This document shows, piece by piece, positions 55,273 through 58,380 of a stretch of 64,000 nucleotides of DNA. The translations under genes were made by a program, and so were the position numbers. The notes beneath the pieces were generated by a model. The model ran no database searches. It was not told the origin of the DNA and worked only from the letters and a program-made list of their open reading frames with translations. This stretch comes from Bacteroidota bacterium. GTDB lineage: Bacteria; Bacteroidota; Ignavibacteria; Kapaibacteriales; HRBIN21. Positions within the stretch are counted from its first letter, which is position 1. Each line of letters opens with the position of its first letter. The stretch is taken from positions 2,283 to 66,282 of the forward strand of contig JAUQPL010000007.1 in assembly GCA_030550395.1 (NCBI GenBank). Reading direction: 5' to 3'.

Positions 55273-58200
55273 ATGCGGAAGTGGGGCATCCTGGGTGCTG
55301 CAATTATAACCACTGTTGCGGGGGCTCAACAGTGGCAGCAGGGGGTACGTTATACGATTCGGGCGGTTCTGATACCGGCGGAAACGCTGCTGCAGGTACA
55401 CACCCGCATGGTCTACCGCAATAACTCTCCCGATACGCTGCGGGAGTTGTACGTGCATCTGTACTGGAACATCTTCGCTCCTCAGAGTTATGCCCGACAG
55501 CTGAGTCGTGAGCGGCGTCTGGAGCGGATTCCAGAACTGCCTCCTGTACAGGTGGATTCCTTCCTTGTCATCGCCTCTACTGGAGAGCGGCGGAAGGAAT
55601 ACGACGTAGACAACACCATCGTCCGGCTCCTCCTGCCCCGTCCTCTTCCTCCCGGGGATTCAGTAGAGGTCATCAGTAGCATTGCGCAGCGGGTTCCGCC
55701 GGAGGGTTTTCGGATGGGGCGCTATGAGCAGGACTACTTTATTGCCCATTGGTTTCCCTCCGTCTGTGTCTATGACCGTTATGGTTGGCACACGGAGCAA
55801 TACTTAGGGATAGGCGAATTTTACGAGGAGATTGCCGATTTTGAAGTGGAACTGACGGTGCCGGGCACGTACCTTGTGGTGCATACGGGTGTGCTCCAAA
55901 ATGCGGTAGAAGTACTTCCTCAGGAAGTGCTACGACAACTTGACCGAGCGCGGGCAGATACTGCACCAGTCCGGATAGCTGATTATGCTCTCTCTCCACC
56001 AGCGGACACTACTCCCCGAGTGTGGCGCTTCTATGCCGAGCGGGTCCGTACGGTTGCCTGGGCTGCCGTCCGGCGCTACTTGTGGGATGTACAGCAATGG
56101 GAGGGTATCCTCGTACATGTGCTCTACCCGAAGCAGTTGGAAAGCTTCTACCGGGACGAAGGTCTCCGTGCAGCTGTCCATGCCGTGCGGTACTTTTCCA
56201 CCCACTTTGGGCGGTATCCATATCCGAACATGTTCGTTGTCGTTGGAGGAACAAGCGGGGGAATGGAGTATCCGGGCATTGTCTTCATCGGCCGGGGCTT
56301 AGGTGGGGGCCTTATGGCACCGAGGACAGCAGAGGTCATTATGCACGAGATCGGACACAACTGGTACCCCATGATGGTGAATTCCAACGAGACGGAATTT
56401 GGCTTCCAGGACGAGGGCTTCAATACGTTCATCACGGCGTTGGCATTGGAATCCTTTTACGGACGGGAGCGGACAGGACTCCGACTTCCAGGGTGGCTCC
56501 GTCCATTTATAGGCTTCAGCGACGAGTACACCGGCATTGCTCTCTCCACGATCCTGTGGCAGCTGACGGGCTGGGACGAGCCGCTTTTAACCCGTTCGGA
56601 TTGGCATCGCACGGCGTGGAGCTACAGTATCAATGCCTATCCCAAGACGGCTTCATTGCTCTTCATGCTCCGAGGGGTGTTAGGGCGGGAGACCTTCAGC
56701 GAATTACTGCGGGAGTACACGCGACGCTACCAATTCCGCCATGTGTATCCGCAGGACTTTGCCCAATTGGCCGCAGAAATTGCCTCCCGTCGGCAGGGGC
56801 AACGAATGGACTTGCGCTGGTTCTTTGATCAATGGTATGCCCAAACCCCGATAGTGGATTACGCCCTGGCGGCCTTGCGGAACGAGCCAGCCCCTGGGGG
56901 AGCATGGGATGTCCGCTTCGTGGTGGAGAGGCGGGCAACGGCGATGTTGCCCGTAGAAGTTCAGCTGCGCTTGGCTGACGGGACGAAACAGCGGGTGCGG
57001 CTCAGTGAGGAGGAGTTCCTCCGGGGAGTGCCACGGGTAGAGCGCTCTCTCCGATTGCCGGCGCCGGCGGTAGAGGCGGTGCTAGATCCAGATACGGCGC
57101 TTTTGTTGGACGTCAACCGCTTGAATAATCGCAGTGGATTCTTGCCGCCGCTGAAGGCACGTTTGTTCGTAGAGGCGTTGAGCTATGAACCGCCGGAGCT
57201 CTATGCTTACGCCATCTCATGGCAGCCTGCCCTGGGGTTCAATACCCAGGACGGACTCAAAGTTGGACTTGAGGTGAGAGGAGGCTATTTGGGGCTTTTC
57301 CATCGGGTGCAGCTATCGGTGCTGCAGGGGCTTCGGTTTCGACCACACTCATTGAATGCCACGTTCTCCTGGCGTCATTTGCTCTGGCAGCTTCCGGGGC
57401 GTCCGTACGTGGAGTTTCGGGGAAGCTGGCAAGAGGGGTGGTGGCGCTTTCGAAGTGGAGCTACCCTTGACTTAAATCCGCAGCCTCCCTCTCCATGGAG
57501 GATGACAGCTCGCTTTGCCGTTGGGTATTGGCGCCGCCATGTTCGGAACTACGCGTTCCCCCAGTCACCACTGGGGATGGGACTGTGGTCGGTGGACCGA
57601 GCAGAGTTGGTGATAACGAAGGCTGCCTTGACAGTTTGGCGGGAGTTCCTCGGTTGGTCTCTCCGGTTGCGAGGCGTTGTGGAGCCTTTGTGGTATCGTG
57701 AGCCAGGGTTTTCCGCTTTGCGTCCAGCTCCTTTTACTGGTGGACGCAGTTTTTTCCGAACGACTCTGGAGATGCTTGTCCAGACGGAACCGCCAGTACC
57801 CGTGCTCCTGCGGGGAGCTATTGGGTGGTTTGCTCCCGATGATGAATCAAGGCTCTTCCCACCGATGGTGGGATTCCGTCTGGCCTCGGTCACACCGATT
57901 GAGGAATTGGAGTTGCCGCTGTATCGGTCGCCAGGCCTTGTGTCGTCGACGGCGCGGCAGCGTCGCACGGCGCCTTCTGGAGGCGCTTTCCTGCGGGGCT
58001 ATGTCCCTCAGGACAGCCTTGGGCGCACAATGGTGGCAGTCAATGGAGAGGTAGGGCTTACGCCTTTCTTGAGCCACTTGCCTGGTGTGCGGTTGCTGAC
58101 GGCTCTGCTGGATATCCGCCTCTTTGCCGATGCCGGCATCGTGGGGGATGCTTTTGCTGCTCCACGGCAATGGAGGGCAGATGCTGGGGTTAGCCTGGAA

Positions 58201-58380
58201 GTCCGCCTTCCGAGGATTCCCGGCTCCCCTTCCATACCGCTGCTGCACCGTCTGGGGATTGATGCCCTTGGGTTGGATATTCCTTTCTTTGTAACCCATC
58301 CACCGGCTGGCGAGCGCCGTTGGGCATTCCGGTGGGCACTTCGCTTCCGTTTGCTGCAGCAGGCTTTTGTGGAGTGGTGA
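55273..58380 (+). CDS. M1-family metallopeptidase fused to C-terminal Omp85/BamA-like beta-barrel
   Basis: GGMEYPGIVFIG and HEIGHNWYPMMVNSNETEFGFQDEGFNTF; barrel part has FLRGYVPQDSLGRTMVAVNGEVGLTPF and RLFADAGIVGDA. Confidence 0.85.
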   Translation: MRKWGILGAAIITTVAGAQQWQQGVRYTIRAVLIPAETLLQVHTRMVYRNNSPDTLRELYVHLYWNIFAPQSYARQLSRERRLERIPELPPVQVDSFLVIASTGERRKEYDVDNTIVRLLLPRPLPPGDSVEVISSIAQRVPPEGFRMGRYEQDYFIAHWFPSVCVYDRYGWHTEQYLGIGEFYEEIADFEVELTVPGTYLVVHTGVLQNAVEVLPQEVLRQLDRARADTAPVRIADYALSPPADTTPRVWRFYAERVRTVAWAAVRRYLWDVQQWEGILVHVLYPKQLESFYRDEGLRAAVHAVRYFSTHFGRYPYPNMFVVVGGTSGGMEYPGIVFIGRGLGGGLMAPRTAEVIMHEIGHNWYPMMVNSNETEFGFQDEGFNTFITALALESFYGRERTGLRLPGWLRPFIGFSDEYTGIALSTILWQLTGWDEPLLTRSDWHRTAWSYSINAYPKTASLLFMLRGVLGRETFSELLREYTRRYQFRHVYPQDFAQLAAEIASRRQGQRMDLRWFFDQWYAQTPIVDYALAALRNEPAPGGAWDVRFVVERRATAMLPVEVQLRLADGTKQRVRLSEEEFLRGVPRVERSLRLPAPAVEAVLDPDTALLLDVNRLNNRSGFLPPLKARLFVEALSYEPPELYAYAISWQPALGFNTQDGLKVGLEVRGGYLGLFHRVQLSVLQGLRFRPHSLNATFSWRHLLWQLPGRPYVEFRGSWQEGWWRFRSGATLDLNPQPPSPWRMTARFAVGYWRRHVRNYAFPQSPLGMGLWSVDRAELVITKAALTVWREFLGWSLRLRGVVEPLWYREPGFSALRPAPFTGGRSFFRTTLEMLVQTEPPVPVLLRGAIGWFAPDDESRLFPPMVGFRLASVTPIEELELPLYRSPGLVSSTARQRRTAPSGGAFLRGYVPQDSLGRTMVAVNGEVGLTPFLSHLPGVRLLTALLDIRLFADAGIVGDAFAAPRQWRADAGVSLEVRLPRIPGSPSIPLLHRLGIDALGLDIPFFVTHPPAGERRWAFRWALRFRLLQQAFVEW

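Follow-up and report, generated by a model that had tools for sequence, protein, structure and literature searches.

Omp85 proteins are familiar as machines for assembly and translocation. In the part of the catalogue of Heinz and Lithgow (2014) covered here, the Omp85/TpsB proteins are divided into ten subfamilies; POTRA domains are the usual companions of the barrel, and some of the published subfamilies do without them (PMC4104836). Among the described systems, the patatin-like Omp85 proteins PlpD and FplA ('type Vd') combine in a single chain a secreted enzyme at the N-terminus and an Omp85 barrel behind it, and this layout is also that of the protein encoded in the stretch of DNA analysed here (64,000 nucleotides, hereafter the window). 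In this fusion protein, however, the enzyme is an M1 peptidase rather than a patatin, and no POTRA stands between enzyme and barrel.

Other subfamilies invite comparison as well. The members of the 'Metallo' subfamily, listed in the covered part of the catalogue among the architectures without POTRA, likewise place a metal-dependent enzyme before the barrel, but their domain is PF00149, termed a metalloprotease in that source, whereas the fusion protein has PF01433 and no PF00149 (PMC4104836). The 'noNterm' subfamily, as far as the covered text describes it, consists of POTRA-less barrels to which the stand-alone relatives of about 400-440 aa described below can be likened by layout alone; unlike the fusion protein, it has no enzyme domain. 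BamA and TamA share with the fusion protein the barrel, the loop-6 RGY motif and the FxDxG motif, but the fusion protein lacks POTRA, bears an N-terminal enzyme and is too distant in sequence for the Pfam Omp85 family. M1 peptidases go unmentioned in the catalogue text covered here; the M1-Omp85 architecture is absent from its ten subfamilies, and the protein is a member of none of those named in it (PMC4104836). Similarly, no report of an M1-Omp85 fusion was found among the openly accessible journal papers searched. By its sequence relationships, the predicted C-terminal barrel places the protein in the Omp85 superfamily.

Layout of the fusion protein

The gene is a single continuous reading frame, as the initial annotation had it, in which a signal peptide, M1 domains I-III and about 415 residues of Omp85-type barrel follow one another in that order. 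Its features, all on the forward (+) strand, are the following.

55273-58380, +: M1-Omp85 fusion gene, one uninterrupted frame of 1035 aa
55273-55332, +: residues 1-20, probable Sec signal peptide MRKWGILGAAIITTVAGAQQ, read from the sequence
55333-57126, +: M1 metallopeptidase domains I-III, residues ~21-618 (Pfam Peptidase_M1, motifs, AF2, Foldseek)
57100-57129, +: junction motif LLLDVNRLNN, residues 610-619, natural C-terminus of barrel-less M1 paralogues
57130-58377, +: residues ~620-1035, predicted outer-membrane beta-barrel of Omp85 type without POTRA (hhalign, PDB profile search, strand alternation)
57988-58002, +: FLRGY, residues 906-910, with Arg908, counterpart of the Omp85 loop-6 motif [VI]RG[FY] (column alignment)
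58117-58140, +: RLFADAGI, residues 949-956, with Asp953, counterpart of the Omp85 FxDxG barrel-wall motif (alignments)

Read by eye, the signal peptide would be cleaved near AGA-QQ, and a hydrophobic N-terminus is also seen in the aligned homologues. The N-terminal part belongs to peptidase family M1: Pfam Peptidase_M1 (PF01433) covers residues 302-521 (E 6e-14, 52.5 bits against a cut-off of 27.7), and the complete catalytic core announced from the sequence (GGMEYP, HEIGHNW and a second glutamate, Glu381) reads as claimed. The zinc site H358/E359/H362/E381 (HEXXH-X18-E, with HEIGHNW at 358-364) and the catalytic-type Tyr456 are invariant in 19 homologues. So is the GMEYP core of the exopeptidase motif GGMEYP (329-334), a variant of GXMEN with tyrosine at the asparagine position and the N-terminus-binding Glu332 invariant in the same 19 homologues. 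Apart from PF01433, no Pfam domain was found in the protein, neither patatin nor PF00149, which we take to be the calcineurin-like phosphoesterase family. The AF2 model of residues 1-640 has a mean pLDDT of 64, although numerous blocks of its core reach 70-92; in Foldseek, the model of the M1 part best matches the M1 aminopeptidases IRAP/ERAP (ERAP1; E 2.8e-22, TMq 0.52). Domains I-III, the HEXXH-X18-E site, the GXME motif and the catalytic tyrosine are common to the fusion protein and to PepN, ERAP1, IRAP, LTA4H and the cold-active ColAP, from which it differs by GGMEYP in place of GXMEN, by the lack of helical domain IV and by its outer-membrane barrel.

Longer M1 enzymes carry a helical domain IV after domain III. 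In the present case, the barrel-less M1 homologues (632-718 aa) with a locatable DPD..PDvdRtNN motif stop 5-24 aa past it, and the fused proteins run on for about 355-455 aa beyond this same junction motif. As the barrel-less paralogues end exactly where the barrel starts, there is room neither for a POTRA domain nor for a helical M1 domain IV in the fusion. The absence of POTRA, already noticed in the initial annotation, is borne out by Pfam, by the AF2 model, in which residues 530-604 form the all-beta domain III and not a POTRA, and by the start of the barrel at the M1 C-terminus. Taken together, the junction, the modelled domain III and the Foldseek match to M1 enzymes indicate that the barrel is joined to a complete three-domain M1 enzyme at the point where such an enzyme naturally ends, in place of helical domain IV. 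It is worth mentioning that some barrel-less GGMEYP paralogues (L019, L024, L026) have a lipobox-like cysteine near the N-terminus, which suggests lipid anchoring as another possible way of tethering the same enzyme.

A peptidase probably tethered beneath the outer membrane

We consider it probable that the fusion protein is an outer-membrane-anchored periplasmic M1 zinc aminopeptidase, tethered by the Omp85-type barrel at its own C-terminus. It would be exported by Sec and its barrel inserted in the outer membrane, presumably by BAM, while M1 domains I-III would remain on the periplasmic face, directly beneath the outer membrane, and would trim N-terminal residues from peptides below the membrane. 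The anchoring at the outer membrane proposed in the initial annotation is upheld as a prediction from sequence; the periplasmic side, the exopeptidase activity and the peptide nature of the substrates are likewise what we infer. The N-termini of Omp85 proteins face the periplasm. Moreover, in PlpD, the prototype of type Vd, the N-terminal enzyme domain has been demonstrated to remain periplasmic (PMC11116518), and it is on these two grounds that we place the M1 part there. For the same reasons, the suggestion that the peptidase is exported through or by its own barrel finds no support. The analogy with type Vd drawn at the outset holds for the order of enzyme and barrel; it fails for the patatin and the intervening POTRA, both absent here, and the PlpD enzyme is itself periplasmic. 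On present evidence, the fusion protein is not type Vd.

The enzyme-then-barrel layout, which is that of the patatin-Omp85 proteins, could still be taken to mean that the barrel passes the M1 domain out in the manner of a type Vd autotransporter, yielding a surface-displayed peptidase, and one weak genome match of the barrel profile (L197) is indeed a patatin-POTRA-Omp85 protein. We nevertheless regard this alternative as unlikely: the enzyme domain on which it is modelled is periplasmic (PMC11116518), neither POTRA nor linker separates M1 from barrel, and a folded zinc enzyme of about 60 kDa would have to pass a narrow pore. It is tempting to speculate further, with slightly less confidence still, that the protein represents an eleventh Omp85 architecture that originated a single time in the Bacteroidota lineage and whose barrel at the place of M1 domain IV would act as a gate or conduit, peptides being trimmed as they enter or leave the outer membrane.

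A barrel that keeps an assembly or translocation activity, with the M1 domain processing its clients, would make the protein an accessory BAM, or translocase, equipped with its own processing enzyme. The Omp85 proteins characterised before PlpD do act in protein assembly or translocation (PMC11116518), Arg908 and Asp953 are kept in the P0001 clade, and other lineages have stand-alone barrels of this family (about 400-440 aa). Yet clients would find no POTRA to bind them, many fused relatives have lost the loop-6 pair and no conserved client gene lies adjacent outside the genus, so that we find this possibility improbable and keep to the periplasmic anchored peptidase. The loop-6 pair deserves a comment. 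In Omp85 proteins, loop 6 folds into the barrel and the motif at its tip forms a salt bridge with the barrel-wall motif (PMC9355242). The resemblance of FLRGY and RLFADAG to these hallmarks was correctly perceived, Arg908 and Asp953 being located in the column alignment. Across 54 aligned barrels, both residues are present in 26, neither in 22, the aspartate alone in six and the arginine alone in none; outside the P0001 clade the pair is missing from many of the fused proteins, and the loop-6 architecture is therefore not kept throughout. The co-occurrence of the two residues is suggestive, but we rejected their covariation as statistical evidence because the M1 tree reduces the pattern to one or two independent changes.

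Identity of the predicted C-terminal barrel

On its own, the C-terminal segment of about 415 aa matched no Pfam or NCBIfam family, and Pfam Omp85 (PF01103) was matched neither by the fusion protein nor by any of 19 homologues. Of the two profiles relevant to the initial annotation, Peptidase_M1 was thus matched directly and Omp85 was reached by profile-profile comparison only; we take the missing direct match to PF01103 as a limit of detection and not as a definition of the Omp85 superfamily. With hhalign, a wide profile built from the C-terminal domains of fused proteins was set against Omp85 barrel profiles from the same lineage, giving P 3.9e-9 over 182 columns against TamA-like barrels and P 9.8e-8 against BamA-like barrels, to be compared with 1e-8 for the positive control (BamA-like against TamA-like). 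The negative controls gave 0.36 for a TonB receptor, 0.13 for FadL, 0.9 for the M1 part and at least 0.07 for reversed or column-shuffled profiles, the best control P reaching 0.002 with other versions of the fused-barrel profile. The claim of an Omp85-type barrel is thereby sustained by a profile-profile match well beyond every control.

Three other lines of evidence point in the same direction. Searched against all PDB sequences, a 33-row barrel profile matched only two, weakly (E 0.044), and both are BamA, aligned at the RGY loop and at the LFADAG strand; a 7-row profile gave no meaningful match in PDB. Among the weak genome matches of the 33-row profile to longer frames, all seven that were checked carry Pfam Omp85 (six with POTRA and one, L197, a patatin-POTRA-Omp85 protein). 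Finally, the strand-type hydrophobic alternation stands out against shuffled sequences in the barrel (z 6.3, compared with 2.9 for BamA-like, 4.1 for TamA-like and -2.1 for the M1 part), with 16 peaks, a number that shifts with the threshold. Together with the controlled hhalign comparisons, these results make homology of the C-terminal domain to the Omp85 barrel well supported at the level of sequence. One may object that the C-terminal third is some other beta-barrel or a beta-rich soluble domain that is Omp85-like by chance, the more so as it has no Pfam match and its AF2 model, built from two sequences (with homologue L001), has a pLDDT of 31 and is not usable. Such a coincidence is very improbable, being strongly disfavoured by profile matches specific against controls, by BamA as the sole PDB match, by seven Omp85 proteins out of seven and by the strand alternation.

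Distribution and origin

The fused frame is common to all five congeners (56-71% identity), and an Ignavibacteriae contig encodes an end-to-end homologue of about 31% identity. At the scale of the phylum, the barrel profile search found the fusion in 48 of 396 sampled genomes belonging to 21 family-level groups, as counted over the matches that it listed, in frames of 985-1602 aa. An HExxH domain shares the open frame with the barrel in 27 of 30 inspected loci, and longer stretches confirmed the fusion in the other three. Peptidase and barrel occur in a single chain with fixed domain order in congeners and phylum genomes alike. A merger of two genes by frame error or assembly artefact, for which nothing could be cited beyond the stand-alone barrels found elsewhere, has a negligible probability and is rejected together with chance joining and a split-gene origin, because the identical fused frame recurs in the five congeners and the 48 phylum genomes and stand-alone barrels have no neighbouring M1 gene in the seven neighbourhoods read.

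These stand-alone barrels of about 400-440 aa belong to the same family as the fused ones (P 4e-33 by profile comparison) and are found mainly in one other family-level group; no M1 gene lies beside them in seven neighbourhoods (L209-L215). These secreted barrels (e.g., L210:5280-6593 and L213:4303-5493) have a recurring neighbour, a lipoprotein-like gene of about 580 aa, and often a GreA-like, sugar-epimerase or acetate-kinase-like gene, named by eye. In the viral contigs searched, only M1 parts were found and no fusion.

In a tree of 68 M1 domains, sampled by BLAST rank and labelled by ORF length, a single branch (support 100/97) separates the proteins with a long C-terminus from the rest; the split is found in all 200 bootstrap trees, and shuffled labels would give 17.6 changes. 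These long proteins include L105 and L118-L120, which are not confirmed as carrying an Omp85-type barrel. The C-terminal parts of L105, L118, L119 and L120 (~390-418 aa) align with the barrel over its first ~66 columns only, and could represent either strongly diverged barrels or a different domain. The simplest reading of the tree would be that the barrel was gained once or lost once, with stable retention, and the M1-Omp85 fusion appears to have arisen once and to have been retained across many bacterial families. L122 and L009 (G164, contig C11) are fused M1-barrel genes standing in tandem in one genome, although they belong to branches far apart within the fused clade.

PlpD had suggested that some Omp85 proteins are membrane-tethered periplasmic enzymes. 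If our reading is true, a second, unrelated class of enzyme, widespread in Bacteroidota, stands on a POTRA-less Omp85 barrel, apparently with a single origin, and the barrel as anchor of a periplasmic enzyme would become a general theme. Numerous proteins whose annotation stops at M1 peptidase would then probably be integral outer-membrane proteins. Since barrel-less paralogues co-occur with the fused form in some genomes, a clean test of the anchor theme is possible.

Gene neighbourhood

The LolA-like, DUF3108 and outer-membrane protein genes reported just upstream of the fusion gene were found as described.

53095-53661: LolA-like gene (PF03548, below cut-off)
53658-54455: DUF3108 protein gene
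54557-55255, +: OMP_b-brl_2, small outer-membrane beta-barrel protein (Pfam PF13568, E 4e-7)

The last of these ends 17 nt upstream of the fusion gene and is possibly co-transcribed with it. The upstream gene order is kept in congener L135; the OMP_b-brl_2 gene is not adjacent to the fusion homologues in L133 and L001, and both a same-order relative and the Ignavibacteriae contig have different neighbours. The context being conserved within the genus only, the three upstream genes are not required partners, and the fusion protein therefore probably works without a dedicated partner. No Rfam family was found near the fusion gene. Convergent with it lies a gene for a LytR-CpsA-Psr family protein (58383-59690 of the window, - strand; PF03816 just over cut-off), and a YfiO/BamD-like TPR lipoprotein gene is located about 2.3 kb downstream (60705-61460, + strand; PF13525, E 8e-23), in an order also kept in congener L135.
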